This document shows positions 52,765 through 64,000 of a DNA stretch of 64,000 nt, in pieces. The position numbers and the translations under genes are program-made. Each line of letters opens with the position of its first letter. Positions within the stretch are counted from its first letter, which is position 1. This DNA is from Salegentibacter salegens (GTDB lineage: Bacteria > Bacteroidota > Bacteroidia > Flavobacteriales > Flavobacteriaceae). The stretch lies in assembly GCF_900142975.1 (NCBI RefSeq), contig NZ_LT670848.1, positions 3,906,001 to 3,970,000 on the forward strand, in the 5' to 3' direction. The notes beneath the pieces were generated by a model that was not told where the DNA came from, did no database searches, and worked only from the letters and a program-made list of their open reading frames with translations.

Positions 52765-54498
52765 ATGGAAGTTAAAACAGCTAGTTTCGAAAAAACAGCT
52801 TCTCCAAAAACAACCACGGTTTCAGGAGCTGAAGCGGTGATAAAATGTTTGTTGGAGGAAGGGGTTGATACGCTTTACGGCTATCCCGGCGGAGCAATTA
52901 TGCCCGTCTACGATGAATTGTACAAATACCAAACCCAAATTCACCACGTCCTCACGCGCCACGAACAAGGCGCTACTCACGCTGCACAGGGTTATGCCAG
53001 GGTAAGCGGGAAAGTAGGTGTTGCTATGGCGACTTCGGGTCCCGGAGCCACCAATTTGGTGACAGGAATTGCCGATGCACAAATAGATTCTACACCCATG
53101 GTATGTATCACCGGGCAGGTAGGTTCACATTTACTGGGAAGCGATGCTTTTCAGGAAACCGATATTATTGGGATTTCCACACCAATCACCAAGTGGAATT
53201 ATCAGGTGACTAAAGCTGAAGAAATTCCGGAAGTTTTAGCAAAAGCTTTTTTTATAGCACGTTCAGGAAGACCGGGACCTGTGTTGATTGATATTACAAA
53301 AGACGCGCAGTTTGCTACGCTAGATTTTTCATATAAAAAATGTTCAGGGATTAGAAGTTATAAACCTAAACCTGAAATTAATCTATTAGAAGTAGAAAGA
53401 GCTGCCGAAGCGATAAATAATGCCAAAAAACCTATGATCATTTTTGGTCAGGGAGTGATTTTAGGCGGTGCCGAAGAACTTTTTAAACAGGTAGTAGAGA
53501 AATCGGGTATTCCCGCTGCGTGGACCATTTTAGGACTGTCAGCTATGCCAACAGATCATCCGTTGAATGTGGGAATGGTTGGAATGCACGGCAATTATGG
53601 TCCGAATGTATTAACCAACGAATGTGATGTTTTAATCGCTATCGGGATGCGTTTTGACGACAGGGTAACCGGAAATTTGGAGAAATATGCCAAACAGGCT
53701 AAAGTGATTCATTTTGAAATAGATCCGGCTGAAATTAATAAAAACGTTTACGCCGATATTCCGGTTTTGGGGAACGTAAATGAAACCCTAAAAATCTTAT
53801 TGGAGCTTTTAAAACCGAATAAACACGAGGCCTGGCATCAAAAGTTTAAAGATTATTATCAAATTGAATTCGATAAAATCATTAAAAATGATTTAAATGC
53901 TGAGCGTGGAAAAATCGGAATGGCAGAAGTTATTGATGAGATCAATAAATGCTCAAAAGGAGATGCTGTAATCGTTTCAGATGTTGGTCAGCATCAAATG
54001 GTGGCCTGTAGGTATTCAAAATTCAATCAAACCAGGAGTAATGTTACTTCCGGTGGACTTGGAACTATGGGATTTGCACTTCCAGCTGCAATTGGTGCTA
54101 AAATGGGTGCGCCAGAACGCGATGTGGTAGCAGTAATTGGCGATGGTGGTTACCAAATGACTATCCAGGAATTAGGAACTATTTTTCAAACAAAAGTTCC
54201 GGTAAAAATCGTGGTTTTAAATAACGATTTCCTCGGAATGGTGCGCCAGTGGCAACAGTTGTTTTTCGAAAAGCGATATGCTTCCACAGAAATGGTAAAT
54301 CCCGATTTTATAACGATTGCCAAAGGATATCATATTAAAGCCAAACAGGTAAGTGAGCGTGAAAATTTGAAAGATGCGGTTAAGGAAATGATGGATTCTA
54401 AAGAAGCTTATTTCCTTGAAGTAAAAGTTGAACAGGAAGAAAATGTATTCCCAATGGTGCCTACCGGGGCTTCAGTTTCTGAAATAAGATTAGAGTAA
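52765..54498 (+). CDS. ilvB: Acetolactate synthase large subunit
   Basis: The 577-residue thiamine-diphosphate enzyme condenses pyruvate with pyruvate or 2-oxobutyrate. RHEQGATHAAQGYAR contains the catalytic Glu. VIGDGGYQMTIQELGT is the start of the ThDP/Mg motif, with LNNDFLGMVRQWQ after it. The order of N-terminal, FAD-binding and ThDP domains is normal. A short N-terminal extension (about 20 residues) precedes the conserved GAEAVIKCLLEEGVD. The stop overlaps the ilvN start by one base. Confidence 0.96.
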   Translation: MEVKTASFEKTASPKTTTVSGAEAVIKCLLEEGVDTLYGYPGGAIMPVYDELYKYQTQIHHVLTRHEQGATHAAQGYARVSGKVGVAMATSGPGATNLVTGIADAQIDSTPMVCITGQVGSHLLGSDAFQETDIIGISTPITKWNYQVTKAEEIPEVLAKAFFIARSGRPGPVLIDITKDAQFATLDFSYKKCSGIRSYKPKPEINLLEVERAAEAINNAKKPMIIFGQGVILGGAEELFKQVVEKSGIPAAWTILGLSAMPTDHPLNVGMVGMHGNYGPNVLTNECDVLIAIGMRFDDRVTGNLEKYAKQAKVIHFEIDPAEINKNVYADIPVLGNVNETLKILLELLKPNKHEAWHQKFKDYYQIEFDKIIKNDLNAERGKIGMAEVIDEINKCSKGDAVIVSDVGQHQMVACRYSKFNQTRSNVTSGGLGTMGFALPAAIGAKMGAPERDVVAVIGDGGYQMTIQELGTIFQTKVPVKIVVLNNDFLGMVRQWQQLFFEKRYASTEMVNPDFITIAKGYHIKAKQVSERENLKDAVKEMMDSKEAYFLEVKVEQEENVFPMVPTGASVSEIRLE

Positions 54499-55028
54499 TG
54501 GAAAAGAAAAATTTCACCGTTTCGATTTATACCGAAAACAACATAGGCCTTTTGAGTCGTATTGCGGCTATTTTTCAGAAAAGGCATATTAATATTGAGA
54601 GCATTACCGCTTCTAGAAGTGAAGTAAACGGGGTGATGCGCTTTATAATCGTAGTACAGGTCACAGAAGATCAGGTAAAAAAGATCGTTGGACAAATTGA
54701 AAAGCAAATAGAAGTAATTAAAGCTTTTTACCATACCGATGATGAAATGATCTACCAGGAAACCGCCTTGTATAAAGTAAATTCAGCCGATTTTGTTGAA
54801 GATCTTAATATTCAGGATTTTATAAAAGGATCTAACGCACGCATCGTGACGGTTACCCCAAAGTTTTTTGTCATTGAAAAAACTGGAAAACGTCATGAAA
54901 CCGATAGTCTTTACGAAAAATTAAAACCTTATGGATTGATGCAGTTCGTACGCTCTGGCACTATTGCAGTGACCAAGAACGAAATGCCAATCTCGAACAT
55001 TTTAGAACAATTTGATACAACCAATTAA
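54498..55028 (+). CDS. ilvN: Acetolactate synthase small (regulatory) subunit
   Basis: The 176-residue protein has an N-terminal ACT domain (FTVSIYTENNIGLLSRIAAI, residues 5-24) that binds the feedback inhibitor, usually valine. A C-terminal domain follows (RIVTVTPKFFVIEKTGKRHE). It is co-translated with ilvB. Length is typical. Confidence 0.95.
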   Translation: MEKKNFTVSIYTENNIGLLSRIAAIFQKRHINIESITASRSEVNGVMRFIIVVQVTEDQVKKIVGQIEKQIEVIKAFYHTDDEMIYQETALYKVNSADFVEDLNIQDFIKGSNARIVTVTPKFFVIEKTGKRHETDSLYEKLKPYGLMQFVRSGTIAVTKNEMPISNILEQFDTTN

Positions 55029-55034
55029 ATAAAA

Positions 55035-56513
55035 GTGATGACGAATTATTTTAACAGTCTTTCTTTACGTGAACAATTAGCCCAACTGGGAACCTGTAGG
55101 TTTATGGGTAGTGATGAATTCAGCGACGGAGTGGCTGCTTTAAAAGGAAAAAAAATAGTAATTGTGGGCTGTGGTGCGCAAGGCTTAAATCAAGGTTTAA
55201 ATATGCGCGATAGCGGACTGGATATTTCTTATGCGCTTCGGGAAGGAGCCATCAAAGAAAAACGCCAGTCTTTTAAAAACGCCTCAGAAAATAATTTTAA
55301 AGTTGGGACCTATGAAGAATTGATCCCAACCGCCGATCTGGTGATTAACCTTACGCCAGATAAGCAACATACCTCGGTAATAAAAGCCATCCAACCGCAT
55401 ATTAAAAAAGATGCGGTGCTTTCTTATTCTCACGGCTTTAATATCGTGGAAGAAGGAATGAAAATTCGGGAAGATATTACCGTAATTATGGTGGCGCCAA
55501 AATGCCCTGGAAGTGAAGTTCGTGAAGAATATAAACGTGGTTTTGGAGTGCCGACTTTAATTGCGGTACATCCTGAAAACGATGCGCAGGGAATTGGTTT
55601 TGAATGGGCTAAAGCTTATGCCGTAGCCACCGGAGGAGATAAAGCCGGGGTTTTGGAATCTTCTTTTGTAGCTGAAGTAAAATCTGATTTAATGGGGGAA
55701 CAAACCATTTTATGCGGAGTGCTGCAAACTGGATCTATCCTGAGTTTTGATAAAATGGTGGCTGAAGGAGCAGAACCTGCTTACGCTGCGAAATTGATTC
55801 AGTATGGTTGGGAAACTATTACCGAAGCTTTAAAGCACGGTGGGATCACCAATATGATGGACAGGCTTTCAAATCCTGCCAAGATCAAGGCCGATGAGAT
55901 TTCCGAAGAATTAAAAGAAATTATGCGTCCACTTTTTCAAAAGCATATGGATGATATTATTTCTGGAGCCTTTAGCAGCAGAATGATGGAAGACTGGGCA
56001 AACGGCGATAAAGAATTGTTGGAATGGCGCGCTGCAACCGGGGAAACTGCTTTTGAAAAAACTGAAGCGACTTCAGCAGAAATAAAAGAACAGGAATATT
56101 TTGATAAAGGAGTATTGTTGGTAGCCTTTGTAAAATCGGGCGTGGAACTGGCTTTTGAAACTATGGTAGAAGCAGGAATTATTGCCGATTCGGCTTATTA
56201 CGAATCGCTGCACGAAACTCCGCTAATCGCCAATACCATTGCGAGAAAGAAATTGTTTGAAATGAACAGGATAATTTCTGATACCGCGGAATATGGTTGC
56301 TATTTATTTGATCATTCGGCAAAACCTTTAATTAAAGATTATGTAAATGCTTTACCAAAAGAGGTGATAGGCCATTCTTTTGGAACCGATTATACCGGAG
56401 TGGATAATCAGCAGTTAATAGCCATTAATGATGAAATTAGGCAACACCCTGTGGAAAAAGTAGGAGGAAAGCTTAGAAAAGCGATGACTGCAATGAAAAA
56501 AATACAGGAATAA
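55035..56513 (+). CDS. ilvC: Ketol-acid reductoisomerase (class II, long form)
   Basis: The 492-residue enzyme isomerises and reduces acetohydroxy acids. [20 protein letters not shown] is the NADPH-binding segment. [20 protein letters not shown] and the duplicated C-terminal knotted domain mark the long class II type found in enterobacteria and plants. Class I enzymes have about 330 residues. It starts 6 bp after ilvN. Confidence 0.96.
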
Positions 56514-56516
56514 ATT

Positions 56517-57791
56517 ATGGATACTTTGCTGGCAGATAAAAAAATATACAAACCTCAATTAGCGGCGGTTAAAGAAGCAGCTGAGCGGATTTCTAAAGTG
56601 GTGGTAAAAACACCCTTGATGCAATCTTTTACCTATAGCAAAAAGTTTTCAGCTAATGTTATGCTGAAAAGGGAAGATTTGCAACAGGTGCGTTCTTATA
56701 AAATTCGCGGGGCTTACAATAAAATCTCGAGTCTTCCGCAAGATCAGTTAGCTAAAGGGGTGATTTGTGCCAGCGCCGGAAATCATGCGCAAGGTGTAGC
56801 TTTTGCTTGTAATAAATTGCAGGTGAAAGGCGTAATCTATATGCCAATTACCACACCCAGGCAAAAAGTAGAACAAACAAATATGTTTGGTGGCGAGTGG
56901 GTTAAAGTGGTTTTAAAAGGGGATACTTTTGATGATTCTTATAAAAGTGCTATTAAACATGGTGATAAAAAAGGATTGGTTTTTATACATCCTTTTGATG
57001 ATGAAAAAGTGATTGAAGGCCAGGCCACTATTGGGCTGGAAATCTTGGAACAGGCAACTGAACCTATAGATTATGTTTTCGCCCCACTTGGGGGTGGCGG
57101 ACTTTTAGCCGGATTGTCATCAATGTTTAAAGAACTATCACCAAATACAAAGATAATTGGTGTAGAGCCGGAGGGCGCACCTTCTATGACCTCTTCTTTA
57201 AAAGAAGGAAAATTGGTAGAATTAAAATCTATTGAACGGTTTGTAGATGGTGCCGCGGTGCAAAAAGTGGGAACCCGAAATTTTGAGATTTGTAAAGAAA
57301 ATCTTGATCACATGATCACGGTACCTGAAGGTAAGATTTGCCAAAGTATCCTGGATCTTTATAACCAGGATGCAATTGTGGTAGAGCCAGCGGGAGCTAT
57401 GGCGATAAGTGCGCTCGATTTTTTTGCCGAAGATATTAAAGGTAAAAACGTGGTATGTATTGTAAGCGGCAGCAATAACGATATTACCCGAACTGCAGAG
57501 ATTAAAGAACGGGCTCTTTTATATGCCGGTTTAAAGCACTATTTTGTAATAAGTTTCCCACAGCGTGCAGGTGCTCTGAAAGATTTTCTGGATAAGGTTT
57601 TAGGTCCTAAAGACGATATTACACATTTTGAATACTCAAAGAAGCATCATCGTGAAAATGCCCCAGCAGTTGTGGGGATAGAATTAAACGATCCTGCAGA
57701 TTTTGAGCCATTGGTTGCCAGGATGAAAGCGAAGAATTTTTACGGGGAATATCTCAACGATAAGCCTAATTTGTTTCAATATTTAGTATAA
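56517..57791 (+). CDS. ilvA: Threonine dehydratase (biosynthetic)
   Basis: The 424-residue PLP enzyme makes 2-oxobutyrate for isoleucine. RSYKIRGAYNKI contains the Schiff-base Lys, and CASAGNHAQGVA and GGGGLLAG bind PLP. One ACT-like regulatory region (about 335-424, with FPQRAGALKDFLDKVLG) is present, compared with two in the E. coli enzyme. It is the last gene of ilvDBNCA, and leu genes are not in the window. Confidence 0.94.
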   Translation: MDTLLADKKIYKPQLAAVKEAAERISKVVVKTPLMQSFTYSKKFSANVMLKREDLQQVRSYKIRGAYNKISSLPQDQLAKGVICASAGNHAQGVAFACNKLQVKGVIYMPITTPRQKVEQTNMFGGEWVKVVLKGDTFDDSYKSAIKHGDKKGLVFIHPFDDEKVIEGQATIGLEILEQATEPIDYVFAPLGGGGLLAGLSSMFKELSPNTKIIGVEPEGAPSMTSSLKEGKLVELKSIERFVDGAAVQKVGTRNFEICKENLDHMITVPEGKICQSILDLYNQDAIVVEPAGAMAISALDFFAEDIKGKNVVCIVSGSNNDITRTAEIKERALLYAGLKHYFVISFPQRAGALKDFLDKVLGPKDDITHFEYSKKHHRENAPAVVGIELNDPADFEPLVARMKAKNFYGEYLNDKPNLFQYLV

Positions 57792-57795
57792 ATAT

Positions 57796-57825
57796 TTTGT
57801 TGGTTAAAATAATTATGTACATTTA
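57796..57825 (+). promoter_or_regulatory. Candidate promoter of the arginine operon, with overlapping palindrome
   Basis: TTTG (57796-57799) and TACATTTA (57818-57825) are spaced by 18 bp, close to the Bacteroidetes -33/-7 pair. TGTACATTTACA (57816-57827) overlaps the -7 element and is an inverted repeat TGTA-N4-TACA, a possible operator, for example for an ArgR-type repressor. A transcript would start within or just before the first leader ORF. Confidence 0.4.
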
Positions 57826-57829
57826 CAAT

Positions 57830-57892
57830 ATGCTTTCAATGAAACAAATAATATTTCCCGTTTTTCGCTTCTTCCCGCGCCGCCGCAGGTAA
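57830..57892 (+). CDS. Arginine-rich leader peptide 1
   Basis: This 20-codon ORF starts at ATG 57830 (a second ATG at 57839 would give 17 codons). It ends F-R-F-F-P-R-R-R-R-stop, with CGC three times and then AGG just before TAA. It is too short for usual gene callers. Its place between a candidate promoter and the arginine biosynthesis genes, and four terminal Arg codons in a row, fit a leader peptide whose translation senses charged tRNA-Arg. No intrinsic terminator is visible after it, so the readout would be translational or Rho-based. This is inference from sequence only. Confidence 0.6.
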   Translation: MLSMKQIIFPVFRFFPRRRR

Positions 57893-57941
57893 GAAGTAAA
57901 ACTATTATTCTATTTTAATATTATTTGATTTTAATTATAAC

Positions 57942-58046
57942 TTGAAAGATCCACAAAACATACCAGCCAATTTAAATTTCAGAATTACTTCTGAAATCAC
58001 ACCAATTCGCCGCCGCTTCCCGCGTCGCACGTTTGTGCGTGTATAA
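57942..58046 (+). CDS. Possible arginine-rich leader peptide 2
   Basis: This 34-codon frame starts at TTG 57942, and no ATG is available in it. It contains P-I-R-R-R-F-P-R-R-T-F-V-R-V before TAA, so six Arg codons fall in the last 12. The DNA segment CTTCCCGCGYCGC is shared with leader 1, and both encode Phe-Pro-Arg-Arg. A perfect 9-bp hairpin (ATTTCAGAA/TTCTGAAAT, 57976-57997) lies before the Arg codons. CGCAC/GTGCG (58026-58039) lies over the end. The weak start makes translation uncertain. Confidence 0.4.
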   Translation: MKDPQNIPANLNFRITSEITPIRRRFPRRTFVRV

Positions 58047-58050
58047 TTTA

Positions 58051-58065
58051 ATGGAACTTAGGTGA
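58051..58065 (+). CDS. Possible four-codon minigene Met-Glu-Leu-Arg
   Basis: ATG-GAA-CTT-AGG-TGA starts 4 bp after the leader 2 stop and ends in an AGG arginine codon, like leader 1. So short an ORF can easily be chance. I list it because it is the third reading frame in a row here with an arginine codon at or near its end. Confidence 0.2.
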   Translation: MELR

Positions 58066-58126
58066 GTCCGGTTCCCCTTTCAAAAAGAACAAATCAAATT
58101 TTATTTTCTCATTAATTCTTTAGCTA

Positions 58127-58762
58127 ATGAAGATTATCATTGCTAATAAATCTCACGCTCAATACGCTGAGATTATTTGTACCACTATAGAAGAATCTGC
58201 AAAGGTTCGAGGCACCGGCATCGCCCGGCGAACTCCCGAATACATCATTGGAAAAATGGAAAAGGGGAATGCAGTTATCGCTTTAGACGGCGATAAATTC
58301 GCCGGATTCTGCTACATCGAAACCTGGAGCCACGATAGGTATGTGGCCAATTCCGGACTTATTGTACATCCCGATTATAGAAATCAGGGGTTAGCCAAAG
58401 AGATCAAGGAAGTGGTTTTTAACCATTCCAGGAAAATGTATCCAAATGCTAAAATCTTCGGGATCACTACCGGTCTGGCGGTGATGAAAATAAATTACGA
58501 GCTGGGATATCAGCCTGTAACCTTTTCTGAGTTAACCGATGATGAAACTTTTTGGAAAGGTTGCCAAACCTGTAAAAATTACGATATCCTTACCAGGACC
58601 GAACGAAAAATGTGCCTCTGTACCGGGATGATGTATGACCCTGAAAGAAAAAAAGATTCCAAACAAACGCAGAAAAAGGAAAGTTTGAATGATAAAGCTT
58701 TTAAAAGGTTAAAGAATATAAAACAAACCTTGTTTTATAAAAAGGAGAAAAACGACAGTTAG
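58127..58762 (+). CDS. GNAT acetyltransferase, probable N-acetylglutamate synthase of the arginine operon
   Basis: The protein has 211 residues. The GNAT core (about 1-135) contains SGLIVHPDYRNQGLAKEIKE with the acetyl-CoA loop. A Cys pattern CX2C-X13-CXC (C146, C149, C163, C165) follows and could bind a metal. The last 40 residues are Lys-rich. It is first in the operon, ahead of argG, and no argA or argJ is seen. This suggests it acetylates (or acylates) glutamate for the first step. The assignment rests on context. Confidence 0.75.
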   Translation: MKIIIANKSHAQYAEIICTTIEESAKVRGTGIARRTPEYIIGKMEKGNAVIALDGDKFAGFCYIETWSHDRYVANSGLIVHPDYRNQGLAKEIKEVVFNHSRKMYPNAKIFGITTGLAVMKINYELGYQPVTFSELTDDETFWKGCQTCKNYDILTRTERKMCLCTGMMYDPERKKDSKQTQKKESLNDKAFKRLKNIKQTLFYKKEKNDS

Positions 58763-58779
58763 AAATTAAATTTATTGAT

Positions 58780-58863
58780 CGTCAAGCTGAACCTGTCACT
58801 TCGAGCGTAGTCGAGAAGTCAGCTTCTAAGCTAGTTAGATCCTGAAATAAGTTCAGGATGACG
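58780..58863. repeat. REP-like repeat within the arginine operon
   Basis: It runs from CGTCAAGCTGAACCTG to AGTTCAGGATGACG, with TTCGAGCGTAGTCGAGAA as an extra internal hairpin. It lies between the GNAT gene and argG. Confidence 0.7.
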
Positions 58864-58884
58864 TTAACATAGTAAATCAGTCAA

Positions 58885-60072
58885 ATGAAAAAAGTAGTTA
58901 TAGCATACAGTGGAGGTTTAGACACTTCTTACTGCGCAAAATATTTATCTAAAGAAGAAAATTTTGAAGTCCACGCAGTTAGTGTAAATACCGGGGGATT
59001 TTCAGAAGAAGAGATTAAAAAAATTGGAGAAAACGCGCAAAAAATTGGGGCAAAGACCTATAAGAATATTGATGCGGTTTCCTCATTTTACCAGAAAGTG
59101 GTAAAATATTTAATCTTCGGAAATGTCTTGAAAAACAATACCTATCCGTTATCAGTAAGTGCAGAAAGGATTGTACAGGCCATCGAGATCGTGAATTATG
59201 CGAAAAAGATCGATGCGAAATATATTGCCCACGGTAGTACAGGTGCTGGAAACGACCAGGTGAGGTTTGATATGATCTTTCAGATTATCGCTCCGGAAAT
59301 TGAGATAATCACTCCTATTAGGGATAAGCAACTTAGCCGTCAGGAAGAGATTGAATACCTGAAACAAAATGGCGTGGAAATGAATTGGGAAAAGTCGAAA
59401 TATTCGGTAAACAAAGGCCTTTGGGGAACCAGCGTAGGGGGAGCCGAAACGCTCACTTCAGAAAAACCTTTGCCTGAAAGTGCCTATCCTTCCCAACTAC
59501 AGGAAAAAGAACCAAAACAGATAAGTTTAAAGTTTACCAAAGGGGAACTTTCCGCAGTAAATGGAAAAGAAAATACGCCTGAAAAAAATATTGAAATTCT
59601 TGAAAATATCGCTTCAAAATATGCGATAGGCAGGGATATTCACGTGGGCGATACGATTATAGGGATTAAAGGAAGGGTTGGTTTTGAAGCTGCTGCGGCC
59701 TTAATCACTATCAAAGCACATCATTTGCTGGAAAAGCACACGCTTAGCAAATGGCAACTGCAGCACAAGGATTATATGGCCAATTGGTACGGCACACACC
59801 TTCACGAAGGTTTGTATCTGGATCCCGTAATGCGCAATCTGGAAGCCTTTTTACAAAGTTCGCAGGAGCAGGTGAACGGTGATGTATTCGTGACTTTGCA
59901 TCCTTACCGATTTACTTTAGACGGAATTTCTTCGGAAAACGATTTAATGAACAGCGGATTTGGAAATTACGGCGAAGAAAATAAAGCATGGACTGCAGAT
60001 GATGCAAAAGGATTTATCAAAATTCTATCGAATGCCGGGAAAATTTACCAACACGTAAAAGAAGGGAAATGA
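58885..60072 (+). CDS. argG: Argininosuccinate synthase
   Basis: The 395-residue enzyme joins citrulline and aspartate using ATP. YSGGLDTSYCAKYL at the N-terminus is the P-loop of the N-type ATP pyrophosphatases. AHGSTGAGNDQVRFD binds citrulline and aspartate. KYSVNKGLWGTSVGGAET is also typical. It overlaps argC by four bases. Confidence 0.95.
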   Translation: MKKVVIAYSGGLDTSYCAKYLSKEENFEVHAVSVNTGGFSEEEIKKIGENAQKIGAKTYKNIDAVSSFYQKVVKYLIFGNVLKNNTYPLSVSAERIVQAIEIVNYAKKIDAKYIAHGSTGAGNDQVRFDMIFQIIAPEIEIITPIRDKQLSRQEEIEYLKQNGVEMNWEKSKYSVNKGLWGTSVGGAETLTSEKPLPESAYPSQLQEKEPKQISLKFTKGELSAVNGKENTPEKNIEILENIASKYAIGRDIHVGDTIIGIKGRVGFEAAAALITIKAHHLLEKHTLSKWQLQHKDYMANWYGTHLHEGLYLDPVMRNLEAFLQSSQEQVNGDVFVTLHPYRFTLDGISSENDLMNSGFGNYGEENKAWTADDAKGFIKILSNAGKIYQHVKEGK

Positions 60073-61031
60073 TTAAAGCAGGAATAATTGGAGGTGCGGG
60101 GTATACGGCCGGCGAACTTATCAGGATACTAATAAACCACCCTGAAACTGAACTGGATTTTGTTTACAGCACTTCCCAGCCCGGAAAACCTGTGGCAGGA
60201 GTACACCAGGATTTACTTGGTGAAACTGAGCTTCAATTCAGCGGCGAGATCAACAAAAATGCAGATGTGGTTTTTCTATGTTTAGGACATGGAAATTCGA
60301 TAAAATTCCTTGCTGAAAATCAGTTCTCAGAAAAGACTAAAATCGTAGATCTAAGCACTGATTACAGGATGAGCGGCGAACATTCCTTTGTGTACGGTCT
60401 TCCTGAATATAATAAAGGAAAGATCAAAAAAGCTAGTTTTATAGCCAATCCCGGTTGTTTTGCCACGGCTATTAGCTTAGCTATTCTACCACTTGCCAAA
60501 GCTGGATTATTGCATGATGATGTTCATATCAATGCGGTTACCGGGGCAACGGGTGCTGGCACCTCACTTTCTGCAACTACGCATTTCACCTGGAGGGATA
60601 ATAATTTTTCCAGTTACAAGGCTTTCGAACATCAACATTTAAATGAAATAGGGCAGAGCCTAAAACTACTTCAGAATTTTAAACTCCCGGAAATTAATTT
60701 TATACCGAACAGGGGAAATTTTTCAAGGGGAATCCATGCTACAGCTTACACAAAATTTGAAGGCAGCCTGGAGGAAGTAAAAGCGATATATGCTGAAGCT
60801 TATCAGGATTCGGCTTTTACGTTTGTTGTTGAAGAAGATTTACATTTAAAGCAAGTAGTGAATACCAATAAATGTCTCTTGCAATTACAGAAATTCGGCG
60901 ATAAGATTTTGATTACCAGTGTGATTGATAATTTACTGAAAGGTGCTTCAGGACAGGCTGTTCAAAATATGAATTTGATGTTTGGTTTTGAAGAAACCGC
61001 CGGCTTAAAATTAAAAGCGAGTTATTTTTAA
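60069..61031 (+). CDS. argC: N-acetyl-gamma-glutamyl-phosphate reductase
   Basis: The 320-residue enzyme reduces acylglutamyl phosphate to the semialdehyde. GIIGGAGYTAGELIRIL is the NADP-binding start, and NPGCFATAISLAILPL carries the catalytic Cys. HQHLNEIGQ is near the catalytic His. The gap to proC (189 bp) holds a repeat. Confidence 0.95.
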   Translation: MIKAGIIGGAGYTAGELIRILINHPETELDFVYSTSQPGKPVAGVHQDLLGETELQFSGEINKNADVVFLCLGHGNSIKFLAENQFSEKTKIVDLSTDYRMSGEHSFVYGLPEYNKGKIKKASFIANPGCFATAISLAILPLAKAGLLHDDVHINAVTGATGAGTSLSATTHFTWRDNNFSSYKAFEHQHLNEIGQSLKLLQNFKLPEINFIPNRGNFSRGIHATAYTKFEGSLEEVKAIYAEAYQDSAFTFVVEEDLHLKQVVNTNKCLLQLQKFGDKILITSVIDNLLKGASGQAVQNMNLMFGFEETAGLKLKASYF

Positions 61032-61061
61032 TGAGATATGCCACTAATACACGAATTTAAA

Positions 61062-61151
61062 CGTCATTACGAACGCAGTGAAGTAATCTCACAATTTATA
61101 ACTAGTAATTGGAGATTGCTTCTCCCGATAAAAATCGGGATCGCAATGACG
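61062..61151. repeat. REP-like repeat, CGTCATTACGA / CGCAATGACG type
   Basis: The ends CGTCATTACGAACG and GGGATCGCAATGACG pair imperfectly, with AGATTGCTTCTCCCGAT inside. It is the same type as at 31664. GTGAATTCGTGGCAA follows at 61182-61196. Confidence 0.7.
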
Positions 61152-61220
61152 AGTTTTATAAAGGTTTTTTACAGAATATTAGTGAATTCGTGGCAAGAAT
61201 AACCAACTAAAACCAAAAAA

Positions 61221-62015
61221 ATGAAAATAGCTATTATAGGAGCTGGGAATCTCGGACTTTCCATTGCAAAAGGACTTATTGTAAACAATGCGTTTACCAC
61301 TTTGTACCTCACCAAAAGAAAAACTGAAGAAATTCAGGAGTATGAGGAATATGCCAAGGTTAAGGTCACAAGTGATAATAGGGAAGCGGTACAAAATTCA
61401 GACATCCTGATTTTTGCGGTGCAGCCTACACAAATGGAACGGATTCTGGAAGAAATTAAAGACGATCTTCATGAAAAGCACGTCTTAATATCTACAATTA
61501 CCGGATTTAAAATCGCTGCTATTGAAGCTATTGTTGGGGAAGAACAGTTTATTGTTCGCTCAATGCCCAACACGGCAATTGCGGTGGGAAAATCTATGAC
61601 CTGCCTTTGCAGTAACGAAAAAGGCAAGAAACGCATCGCTATTGCTGAAGCTATTTTTAATCGTTTGGGAAACATTATAATTATACCAGAAAATAAAATG
61701 CAGGCTGCCACGGTAATCTGTGCCAGTGGGATCGCATTTTGGATGCGGCTTATTCGCGCTACCACCCAGGGAGCGGTACAACTTGGTTTTGATGCAAAAG
61801 ATGCACAGCAACTGGCCATGCAAACCTGTTTGGGTGCTTCCAGCTTGCTTTTAGAATCTGGTAAACACCCCGAAGAAGAAATAGACAAAGTAACCACGCC
61901 ACGTGGCTGTACGATTGAAGGTTTGAATGAAATGGAACACAATGGCCTTAGCTCGTCTTTAATAAAAGGAATACAGGCTTCATTTAAAAAAATAAACACG
62001 ATAACAACCGATTAA
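61221..62015 (+). CDS. proC: Pyrroline-5-carboxylate reductase
   Basis: The protein has 264 residues. GAGNLGLSIAKGLIV (residues 7-21) is the NADPH-binding motif. VRSMPNTAIAVGKSMTCLC and TTPRGCTIEGLNEMEHNGL are the family signatures. It makes proline from pyrroline-5-carboxylate. It lies 2 bp before argD, inside the arginine operon, which links proline and ornithine metabolism. Confidence 0.93.
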   Translation: MKIAIIGAGNLGLSIAKGLIVNNAFTTLYLTKRKTEEIQEYEEYAKVKVTSDNREAVQNSDILIFAVQPTQMERILEEIKDDLHEKHVLISTITGFKIAAIEAIVGEEQFIVRSMPNTAIAVGKSMTCLCSNEKGKKRIAIAEAIFNRLGNIIIIPENKMQAATVICASGIAFWMRLIRATTQGAVQLGFDAKDAQQLAMQTCLGASSLLLESGKHPEEEIDKVTTPRGCTIEGLNEMEHNGLSSSLIKGIQASFKKINTITTD

Positions 62016-62017
62016 CT

Positions 62018-63151
62018 ATGGACTTATTTGATGTTTATCCGCTTTACGATATCACGCCGATAAAAGGTGATGGCGCTTATGTGTTTGATAAAGAGGATAG
62101 GAAATATCTTGACCTATATGGTGGTCACGCTGTAATCTCGATTGGTCATTCCCATCCGGCTTATTTAAATGCAATTTCTAAGCAAGTGTCGAAACTGGGT
62201 TTTTACTCCAATTCGGTTAAAAATCCTTTACAAAATAAACTTGCCGATAAGTTGGAAAAAGTTGCAGGAATAAAAGATTACAGCCTGTTTTTATGTAATT
62301 CGGGTGCTGAAGCAAACGAAAATGCTTTGAAAGTCGCTTCTTTTCAAACTGGGAAAGACCGGGTTATTTATTTTGAAAATGCTTTCCACGGAAGAACATC
62401 AGGAGTGGTTGCGGTGACCGATAATGAAAACATCAAAGCACCCTTCAATCAAAACCATAAAGCTACAAAACTTGCTTTTGAAGATATTGAAGCTCTTGAA
62501 AACGAGTTGAAAAAGGGCGATGTGGCTGCGGTTATTTTTGAGGTGATACAGGGAGTTGGTGGTTTGGATGAAGCTTCAACTGAGTTTTACCAAGAAACGG
62601 CTGAATTATGTAAAAAGTACCATTCGGTTTTAATTGCCGATGAAGTGCAGTCGGGTTACGGCAGGACCGGTGATTTTTTCGCTTTTCAGAAACATGAAAT
62701 TCAGCCTGATATTATTTCTATTGCGAAAGGAATGGGCAATGGTTTTCCCATTGGTGGGATTTTAATAGATAAAACTATTGAAGCAAAATCAGGAATGTTG
62801 GGAACTACTTTTGGAGGAAATCACCTGGCCTGCGCGGCAGGAATTTCGGTTTTGGATATTATTGAAAAGGAAAACCTTTTAAAAAATGCCAGCGAACTTT
62901 TTGAATATGTAAAAGAAAAAGCGGCTGAAAATCCACAGATAAAAAAGATCAAAGGTCGCGGATTGATGATTGGTTTAGAATTCGATTTTGAGATCGCGCA
63001 AATAAGAAAAGAGCTTTTATTTAAACATCAAATCTTTACGGGTGCTTCTGCCAACAAAAAGCTGTTGCGAATTTTACCGCCTTTAAATATTAAAAAGGAA
63101 CATTTTGATGAGTTATTTAAAGCTTTAAAGATTGTTTTAGACTTGAAATAA
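62018..63151 (+). CDS. argD: Acetylornithine aminotransferase family enzyme
   Basis: The 377-residue class III PLP aminotransferase carries LFLCNSGAEANENALK, VIFEVIQGVGG and IADEVQSGYGRTGDFFAF, with the Lys in ISIAKGMGNGFPIGG. In this operon it should convert the acylglutamate semialdehyde to acylornithine. Ornithine aminotransferases are close relatives and, with proC next door, a dual role is possible. Confidence 0.92.
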   Translation: MDLFDVYPLYDITPIKGDGAYVFDKEDRKYLDLYGGHAVISIGHSHPAYLNAISKQVSKLGFYSNSVKNPLQNKLADKLEKVAGIKDYSLFLCNSGAEANENALKVASFQTGKDRVIYFENAFHGRTSGVVAVTDNENIKAPFNQNHKATKLAFEDIEALENELKKGDVAAVIFEVIQGVGGLDEASTEFYQETAELCKKYHSVLIADEVQSGYGRTGDFFAFQKHEIQPDIISIAKGMGNGFPIGGILIDKTIEAKSGMLGTTFGGNHLACAAGISVLDIIEKENLLKNASELFEYVKEKAAENPQIKKIKGRGLMIGLEFDFEIAQIRKELLFKHQIFTGASANKKLLRILPPLNIKKEHFDELFKALKIVLDLK

Positions 63152-63178
63152 TACAAGAAGCGCTTTTAAAAAAAAAAT

Positions 63179-63277
63179 CGTCAAGCTGTCCCGAGGTTTC
63201 GGGATTGTTTCAGCTTCTAATATGTTAGATCTCCGAATAATTTCCGGAGCAGGCTCTGAAACAAGTTAAGGATGACG
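63179..63277. repeat. REP-like repeat between argD and the carbamoyltransferase gene
   Basis: It runs from CGTCAAGCTGTCCCGAGG to AAGTTAAGGATGACG and contains the hairpins TCCCGAGGTTTCGGGA and CTCCGAATAATTTCCGGAG. Confidence 0.7.
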
Positions 63278-63318
63278 AGGTTGAGAACTTTTAGATCGCT
63301 TGAAAAGAAGAAAATAAA

Positions 63319-64000
63319 ATGAAGAATTACACAGAATTATCAGATATAAAAGATTTGCAGCAATTAATCACCGAAGCGCTGGAGTTAAAAAAAGCTTCCT
63401 CTTCGCTGGAAATAGGCAAAGGGAAAACCCTGGGAATGCTGTTTTTTAATCCGAGTTTGCGAACGCGCTTAAGTACCGAAAAAGCGGGGAAATTGCTGGG
63501 TATGGATGTAATGGTAATGAATGCCGGAAGCGATAGTTGGAAACTGGAGTTTGAAGATGGAGCTATAATGGATTCTGATAAAGCTGAACATATTAAAGAA
63601 GCGGCCGCCGTATTATCGCAATATTGTGATATTATCGCGGTGAGGGCGTTTCCGGATTTAAATGATAAAGAAAAAGATGAAGCCGAAACGGTATTAAATA
63701 GTTTTAAAAATTATGCATCAGTACCCGTTGTAAATCTCGAGAGCGCTACAGGCCACCCATTGCAGGCACTTACCGATGCCATTACTATTACAGAATTAAA
63801 GAAAAAGGACAGGCCAAAAGTTGTGCTTAGCTGGGCGCCACATCCAAAAACTTTGCCGCAAAGTGTTCCAAATTCTTTTGCTGAAATAATGCAAAAGCTG
63901 GATGTTAATTTTGTGATCACCAATCCTGAGGGTTATGATTTGAATCCTGAAATCACGAAGAATATCCCGATAATCCATAATCAGGATGAAGCTTTAAAAG
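63319..64000 (+). CDS. argF: N-acetyl/N-succinylornithine carbamoyltransferase, 3' truncated by the window
   Basis: 227 residues are visible from the ATG at 63319, and the frame is open to the window end. NPSLRTRLSTEKA is the carbamoyl-phosphate motif (usually SxRT), and GHPLQALTDAIT holds HPxQ. The segment DSWKLEFEDGAIMDSDKAEH and FVITNPEGYDLNPE fit the Bacteroidetes acylornithine-type enzymes more than standard ornithine carbamoyltransferases. Whether the acyl group is acetyl or succinyl cannot be decided here. The symbol argF is used loosely for the acylornithine type. Confidence 0.85.
   Translation, partial: MKNYTELSDIKDLQQLITEALELKKASSSLEIGKGKTLGMLFFNPSLRTRLSTEKAGKLLGMDVMVMNAGSDSWKLEFEDGAIMDSDKAEHIKEAAAVLSQYCDIIAVRAFPDLNDKEKDEAETVLNSFKNYASVPVVNLESATGHPLQALTDAITITELKKKDRPKVVLSWAPHPKTLPQSVPNSFAEIMQKLDVNFVITNPEGYDLNPEITKNIPIIHNQDEALK

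Follow-up and report, generated by a model that had tools for sequence, protein, structure and literature searches.

Genes and features of the locus

The window, by which we mean the whole 64,000-nt stretch of DNA analyzed, sits in a 4.01-Mb single-contig genome, and all features described below are on its forward strand. The leader region (57792-58126) divides an upstream ilv cluster from the gene set GNAT-argG-argC-proC-argD-argF′. The upstream ORFs were assigned to ilvN, ilvC, and ilvA by reading their sequence alone, and the last of these ends at 57791. Downstream, family searches identified argG (58885-60072), argC (60069-61031), and proC (61221-62015). For argD (62018-63151), the best family scored below its cut-off. 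The argF-type acylornithine carbamoyltransferase gene (63319-63999) is cut by the window end, and its best family, N-acetylornithine carbamoyltransferase, likewise scored below the cut-off on the cut protein. This gene set is an arginine biosynthesis operon. Its first gene (58127-58762) encodes a putative GNAT-type acyltransferase that scored below the NCBIfam cut-off and is plausibly the missing first acyltransferase in the arginine pathway of this group. Among 109 loci, argG follows the GNAT gene on the same strand in 108, and in the remaining one the contig stops just past GNAT. The GNAT protein has a conserved Cys-rich C-terminal part and no NCBIfam equivalog above the cut-off. Additionally, repeat-like sequence (CTGAACCTGTCACTTCGAGCGTAGTCGAGAAG..., TCCTGAAATAAGTTCAGGATGAC) was noticed by eye in the gap between GNAT and argG (58775-58870).

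A predicted promoter of the Bacteroidetes type is located at 57796-57825, with TTTG at 57796-57799 and a -7 box (TACATTTA) at 57818-57825 that ends four bases upstream of the first leader ATG. The consensus for such promoters is TTTG/TANNTTTG (PMC6847099).

Two short ORFs with Arg-rich ends lie between this promoter and the GNAT gene. Leader ORF 1 (57830-57892; peptide MLSMKQIIFPVFRFFPRRRR) has an ATG start and 20 codons; the peptide ends in FFPRRRR, and the last codons are CGC CGC CGC AGG TAA. Leader ORF 2 (57942-58046; peptide LKDPQNIPANLNFRITSEITPIRRRFPRRTFVRV) has a TTG start and 34 codons, with six Arg among the last 12 (C-terminus IRRRFPRRTFVRV). The starts, lengths, and Arg-rich ends of both leaders agree on the DNA with the original prediction. 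The same holds for the 13-mer CTTCCCGCGYCGC that the leaders were said to have in common: it occurs only there, with exactly two copies in the window (57871 and 58016) and a mean of 0.00 copies in 100 shuffles. Short ORFs with Arg-rich tails are not above chance expectation, with two in the window compared with a mean of 2.2 in 20 Markov-1 windows. These two are leader 1 and an ORF located out of frame inside the GNAT gene, and leader 2 is not even among them. The significance of the leaders thus comes from conservation in relatives and not from the single sequence.

Conservation of the leaders in relatives

Searches for the GNAT gene were positive in 37 of 60 genomes and, within the family, in 168 of 249, with the window's own genome included in both counts. 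For the comparison, we used 190 upstream regions: 30 from the 60-genome search (including that of the window), 80 named ones, and 80 family-search matches. A hairpin that we refer to as P3 has the core pattern GGTGNGYCC, which is present in 183 of these regions; since some genomes are represented twice, the distinct regions with P3 number 174. The core is missing from L032, L056, L081, L157, L168, L183, and L190, the last of which retains the hairpin with GG/CC changed to GA/UC (read by eye).

Comparison of the upstream regions, as the original prediction had proposed, indicates that many genera retain the Arg-rich leaders. Of the 183 P3 loci, all except L029 (182) have at least two Arg in the last 14 codons of the frame that ends beside P3 or the preceding hairpin P2, and 138 have four to six. 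Over the last 14 codons of the 183 loci (2562 codons), the Arg totals of the three frames are 783, 255, and 70, a contrast that is flattered by the choice of the leader frame according to Arg content. By architecture, 90 of these loci have tandem leaders, 87 have a single leader, and six are unclear. Zobellia, for example, has P3 with one leader (L038). On the GNAT tree (110 rows), the tandem group requires nine changes compared with a shuffled mean of 36.8, and tandem versus single requires five; this clustering indicates that the pair is old and not a quirk of one genus.

Arg-rich leader 1 is present in 84 of the 174 distinct loci. These remained from 91 candidates after a filter that also called for a start-type codon at 29-37 or 40 codons ahead of the stop of leader 2; the seven excluded are six loci with spurious upstream frames and L029. 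In 68 of the 84 tandem loci, leader 2 has a start-type codon at a distance of 30, 31, or 34 codons from its stop, whereas positions 20-28 together contain only three such codons across all 84. The leader-2 starts taken were TTG in 53, GTG in 24, and ATG in seven. A loose pattern placed a promoter-like box ahead of leader 1 in 82 of the 84 loci. Among loci of the one-base-bulge class of P3 (see below), to which our listing of single leaders is confined, the leader is an ATG frame of 22-29 codons in 68, mostly behind a -7 box by eye; inspection of 65 distinct single-leader loci likewise placed a box ahead of the leader ATG in most.

The original prediction had also expected substitutions of the synonymous type, which is not what the differences in leader 1 look like. 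By codon position, they number 310/291/374 within the genus and 700/702/866 elsewhere, i.e., nearly even, which suggests that the Arg content is kept and not the peptide. With regard to leader translation, the clustered starts and frame-specific Arg are indirect observations, and the codon-position test came out nearly even.

Codon choice within the leaders is strongly biased. CGC and CGT together account for 92% of the 761 Arg codons in 172 leaders, compared with 36% (and 47% for AGA and AGG) in the 35 window ORFs of at least 250 aa. In leader 1 alone (80 distinct leaders), Arg makes up 23% of the codons, and 79% of these Arg codons are CGC or CGT. Part of the bias is forced by P2, but this applies neither to the codons upstream of P2 nor to those in leader 1. 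The excess favors the CGY-reading tRNA-Arg, which we take to be the ICG isoacceptor, as the likely sensor, such that the leaders may sense its charging.

Hairpin P3

In the window, P3 (GGAACT-TA-GG-TGAGT-CC-GGTTCC) is located at 58053-58075 and was not part of the original prediction. It has a 6-bp stem, a bulge that mostly ends in A, a GG/CC pair of base pairs, and a UGNGY loop; by best fit, the bulge is 1-3 nt in all but one of the 183 loci. Covariation was counted on 30 chosen from the 48 distinct sequences with a two-base bulge and on all 38 types with a one-base bulge. The former pair in 98.8% of cells, with five of the eight pairs changed on both sides; the latter pair in 95.1%, with six of eight changed on both sides. 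These scores are above those of all 500 shuffles and all slid-register controls. Relatedness alone can beat shuffles, but the slid controls retain relatedness. The predicted pairing probability is 0.64 in the 339-nt fold of the window's leader region and about 0.5 over relatives folded from leader 2 on.

The position of P3 relative to the GNAT gene is nearly fixed. From the P3 core to the GNAT start, the median distance is 65 nt with a MAD of 2 over 106 loci, of which four are at 87-112 nt; in the same loci, the GNAT-argG spacing has a MAD of 10. The 106 were taken from 109 loci, excluding L056 and L081 (without P3) and L062 (without argG, on a short contig). This near-constancy suggests that the GNAT start is either the target of P3 or the point from which it is measured. 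Furthermore, P3 does not look like a general element of the window's genome, as a search there returned one match at E up to 10, with 150 of 867 first-look candidates scored. P3 looks like a recognition element and is probably the key output element of the leader.

The comparison also bears on a third leader ORF, ATG-GAA-CTT-AGG-TGA, that had been proposed at 58051-58065 (ATGGAACTTAGGTGA). This proposal did not survive: across the 174 distinct loci, the start-type codon is ATG in 68, TTG in 62, and absent in 44, and the frame lengths scatter. Judged from these loci, the alleged ORF is the 5′ strand of P3.

Two further pairings that involve P3 were rejected. A loop pseudoknot found no support, as neither the upstream nor the downstream sequence contains a partner that matches the variable loop base of P3. 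An anti-P3 hairpin formed by the spacer and the P3 5′ arm scored -1.04, compared with -1.01 (sd 0.07) in 100 permutations. The loci tested gave no support to any alternative helix for P3.

Distribution of P3 and other leader designs

In a scan of the phylum with model R1, 17 of 296 genomes had a match at E up to 0.01, and 12 of these belong to the window's family. Of the six weakest-looking loci (L204-L209), three were viewed, and these look like coding sequence; one of them, the family match in genome G364, is not on the contig that carries the GNAT gene of that genome. Because R1 was built on members with a two-base bulge and misses those with a one-base bulge, the scan underestimates the spread of P3; for example, genome G015 has P3 by pattern yet no R1 match. 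Among 30 further loci picked mainly for having no R1 match or for being outside the family, three have the P3 core.

In the genus that we take to be Flavobacterium, the P3 core is absent from all 16 GNAT-bearing genomes (17 searched). Thirteen of the 16 GNAT loci (L210-L212 and L214-L223) share a different leader with the motif TCTCCCGAAGTACGG, in which one base is A or G. An example is MNKTSLHITSLSRTNRPTTSPEVRML, with two CGG codons and a small hairpin (ACTTCTCCCGAAGT) but no P3. In the five loci whose leader was inspected, a TACTTTTG box lies ahead of it. Three other Flavobacterium loci (L229, L230, and L233) have neither P3 nor the TCTCCCGAAGTACGG leader. The Flavobacterium leader is possibly a second design of arginine leader. 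Separately, a second GNAT paralogue that is 52-53% identical to that of the window was observed in four Flavobacterium genomes (L239 and further matches).

Arg-rich leaders with other terminal hairpins were also seen at six loci (L228, L234, L238, L231, L236, and L237), which represent either different families of the order, as for L228, L234, and L238, or distant relatives within the family. Between L228 and L234, a stem AATGGT/ACCATT changes to AATGAT/ATCATT around a fixed TACGT loop. Given such Arg leaders without P3 in other families and in Flavobacterium, the principle seems wider than P3.

Other helices and modelled folding

The leader region folds better than shuffled sequences (z = -3.39). 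Of the two hairpins in the original prediction, both exist as inverted repeats, but the folding agreed with only one of them. The hairpin within leader 2 (57976-57997; ATTTCAGAA TTAC TTCTGAAAT), located upstream of the Arg codons, has a probability of 1.00 in the window's 339-nt fold, and comparable hairpins were seen by eye in other genera. P2 (58026-58039; CGCAC GTTT GTGCG) has a probability of only 0.21 in the same fold and is replaced in the minimum-energy fold. Elsewhere, P2 is mostly CGCCC GTAA GGGTG, with mean predicted probabilities of 0.78 in 87 single-leader and 0.67 in 90 tandem loci when folding begins at leader 2. The last Arg codons of leader 2 lie within P2, such that the control codons overlap the hairpin. 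The covariation analysis that had been proposed for the region thus supported a hairpin that had been missed (P3), while for P2 it is thin: among 11 distinct sequences, a single pair is changed on both sides. The 11 are from a set of 12 types (one was misregistered) in 143 loci with a four-base loop; 38 loci have other loops, and in two of the 183 the P2 candidate was out of range. The spacer between P2 and P3 is 10-16 nt, mostly 12-13, over 164 distinct loci.

A long-range helix, P1, likewise absent from the original prediction, would join leader 1 (5′ arm CAAATAATATT, 57845-57855, codons 6-9) to the stretch before leader 2 (3′ arm AATATTATTTG, 57917-57927, 14 nt before the start codon). Its probability is 0.87 in the window's 339-nt fold. 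In 84 loci, own partners had a mean of -10.30, compared with -7.27 (sd 0.27) for foreign partners in 2000 permutations; excluding the genus, the values are -10.39 and -7.90. At a given locus, a median of 17% of foreign partners fit at least as well, and 19 of the 84 loci are in the best 5%. The AT-rich arms and the relatedness of the loci leave some doubt about the pairing of P1. By these comparisons, P1 and P2 pairing is weakly indicated.

As the original prediction had noted, no T-run terminator follows the leaders. We searched the leader region for a good U-run terminator and found none; the only terminator-like site is 58026-58039, which has a weak tail. Similarly, no mutually exclusive pair of an antiterminator with a U-run terminator or a start-site sequestrator was found at the leader loci. 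A translational readout had been considered possible, but one by sequestration of the GNAT start was not supported: the modelled states, which cover 87 single and 90 tandem loci, all leave the start region unpaired at 0.49-0.51, and placing a ribosome on the leader, whatever its position, does not alter the modelled accessibility.

Known regulators

A search of 60 genomes of the order, the window's own among them, returned no match to the arginine repressor ArgR (PF02863); of these genomes, 52 are at least 90% complete and at most 5% contaminated. A control search was positive in eight of 14 genomes, including Escherichia coli, Bacillus subtilis, and a Bacteroides. With Rfam covariance models, neither window positions 53000-64000 nor 18 selected loci gave a relevant match; the only two with E up to 1 (0.065 and 0.3) were below gathering and belong to unrelated families.

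PyrR homologues above the cut-off are present in 51 of the 60 genomes. Neither the PyrR loop nor the P3 core occurs within 600 nt upstream of pyrR in any of 16 loci. A PyrR-regulated leader was thus rejected, as the protein is present but the PyrR loop is absent upstream of its own gene and does not fit P3. The PyrR-family protein of the window's own genome (G000:C1:1111774-1112301) scored above the cut-off, and no PyrR loop pattern was seen upstream of it or in 15 relatives.

Possible mechanism and alternatives

Our preferred reading, to which we assign a probability of roughly 0.7, is that this leader system is a ribosome-mediated arginine attenuator. Sensing of tRNA-Arg charging by the ribosome is favored by the position of the leaders, the Arg codons, the codon choice, the pattern of start codons, and the finding of no ArgR. 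We infer the use of the promoter, the stalling of the ribosome, the sense of the regulation, and the relay between leaders as follows. Transcription would start a few bases before leader 1, which would be read by the first ribosome; in the tandem clade, leader 2 would be read as well. Both leaders end in runs of CGC/CGT that would be decoded by the CGY-reading tRNA-Arg. When arginine is plentiful, the ribosome would run through and leave, P2 could fold, and the operon would be low. When the tRNA is uncharged, the ribosome would stall on the Arg codons, in or just before the 5′ arm of P2, such that P2 is unable to fold and the operon is expressed. P3, 12-13 nt past P2 and at a near-fixed distance from the GNAT start, would be the output element. 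In tandem loci, P1 may form between early codons in leader 1 and the sequence that precedes the start of leader 2; ribosomes on leader 1 may then gate leader 2 through P1, with the leaders acting as a relay.

A more specific form of this attenuator is a two-stage sensor, in which two serial Arg leaders are coupled by P1, through which ribosomes on leader 1 would open the start of leader 2, and feed a lineage-specific operator, P3, that would act on GNAT from a nearly constant distance by way of an RNA-binding factor and not a terminator. We put this forward tentatively and consider it less than likely. If true, a family for which the search returned no ArgR would have its main arginine regulator here, and the sensor would read one tRNA-Arg isoacceptor.

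Several other explanations compete with attenuation by the ribosome. P3 may be an operator at which a trans factor, such as an RNA-binding protein, governs either the translation of GNAT or the fate of the transcript, with the leaders only tuning access. The conserved bulge, GG/CC, and UGNGY core with a covarying stem are as in protein-binding hairpins, one genomic copy and no loop partner were found, and the distance to the GNAT start varies far less than the GNAT-argG spacing (MAD of 2 versus 10 nt in the 106 loci). However, any binder is putative, PyrR homologues are present but with neither the PyrR loop nor the P3 core upstream of their gene (16 of 16 loci), and in some further families of the order the hairpins that accompany Arg leaders are of another kind. 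We consider this explanation possible but rather unlikely. The readout may also depend on pausing and Rho, with P2 as a pause hairpin, the polymerase halting 11-13 nt downstream, and Rho terminating when leader 2 is unoccupied. Hairpin-dependent pauses have a geometry of about 11 nt. This agrees with the P2-P3 spacer of mostly 12-13 nt and with the pyrimidine-G step that 119 of 164 loci have at 11-14 nt, but this step may be merely the first G of P3. Rho is used by one leader with Arg codons in Salmonella (PMC6386406). Still, evidence of the rut type is absent here, P2 is weak in the window's fold, and Rho would leave both P3 and its distance to GNAT unexplained, so we regard this version as doubtful.

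It is improbable that the Arg-rich C-terminus itself stalls the ribosome on binding free arginine, like the fungal arginine attenuator peptide. Basic C-termini and Pro-stop slow ribosomes, and leaders end in RRRP before the stop in many genera. However, the peptide sequences diverge strongly beyond the Arg run, the CC of P2 dictates the final Pro (which is Val in leader 2 of the window), the CGY choice points to the tRNA and not the amino acid, and arrest by the end product would have to switch output off. Finally, that the ORFs are untranslated by-products of GC-rich RNA structure is highly improbable: Arg-tailed short ORFs do arise by chance (2.2 per random window), P2 does force some CGC codons, and the codon-position differences are nearly even, but leader 1 and the sequence ahead of P2 are likewise full of Arg codons, these codons are specific to one frame, and the leaders have starts clustered at set distances and lie behind promoter-like boxes.

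Taken as a ribosome-mediated attenuator, this system hints at the way in which arginine synthesis may be controlled in a large and mainly marine family for which the search returned no ArgR. It would provide two leaders in natural tandem and a tRNA sensor specific to one codon box, and the covarying P3 with its conserved core offers a hairpin whose partner can be sought directly. It also bears on attenuation in bacteria without Shine-Dalgarno sequences.

Comparison with known systems

The trp, his, leu, and ilv leader-peptide attenuators of Proteobacteria are the classical systems. The arginine leader is like them in having a short ORF with a run of end-product codons that overlaps the first hairpin, and it differs in that the amino acid is arginine, two leaders often occur in series, the starts are of the flavobacterial type without Shine-Dalgarno sequences, and a conserved bulged hairpin (P3) takes the place of the U-run terminator and antiterminator helix, neither of which was found. 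It thus resembles leader-peptide attenuation without the defining terminator/antiterminator switch, which was sought and not found. The fungal arginine attenuator peptide (arg-2/CPA1) is similarly an upstream ORF tied to arginine synthesis; it is eukaryotic and senses free arginine via a conserved peptide that is not known to have an Arg run. P3 itself recalls the hairpins of MS2-type coat proteins and PyrR, which share a stem, a bulged base, two G-C pairs, and a small loop, whereas P3 has a UGNGY loop and its GG/CC is reversed relative to the PyrR loop.

Among bacterial leaders with Arg codons, one close system is orf34 of speF, also named SpeFL. This leader of Salmonella and relatives likewise has consecutive Arg codons and acts without an intrinsic terminator, but its target is ornithine decarboxylase and not arginine biosynthesis, the core of its peptide is conserved, and it occurs singly (PMC6386406). 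A 2010 survey (PMC2965389) stated that, to its knowledge and ermC aside, leader-peptide systems had previously been shown only in Proteobacteria and Actinobacteria, and it added its own case from Firmicutes. Within the same bacterial family as the window, the available text of a 2021 study (PMC9723704) describes strong clues for leader-peptide attenuation of F. psychrophilum amino-acid operons and new 5′ elements (pheA and hisG among others) without Rfam hits. The class of mechanism is the same as that favored here, and that portion of the account names no arginine leader, tandem leaders, or P3. Our literature search on leaders and PyrR, with most subscription journals outside its coverage, returned no description of this arginine leader, and no Rfam family matches it, in agreement with the original prediction that no leader of this form had been described. 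The general idea of attenuation is therefore known from other bacteria, while its arginine version and the P3 hairpin look undescribed.
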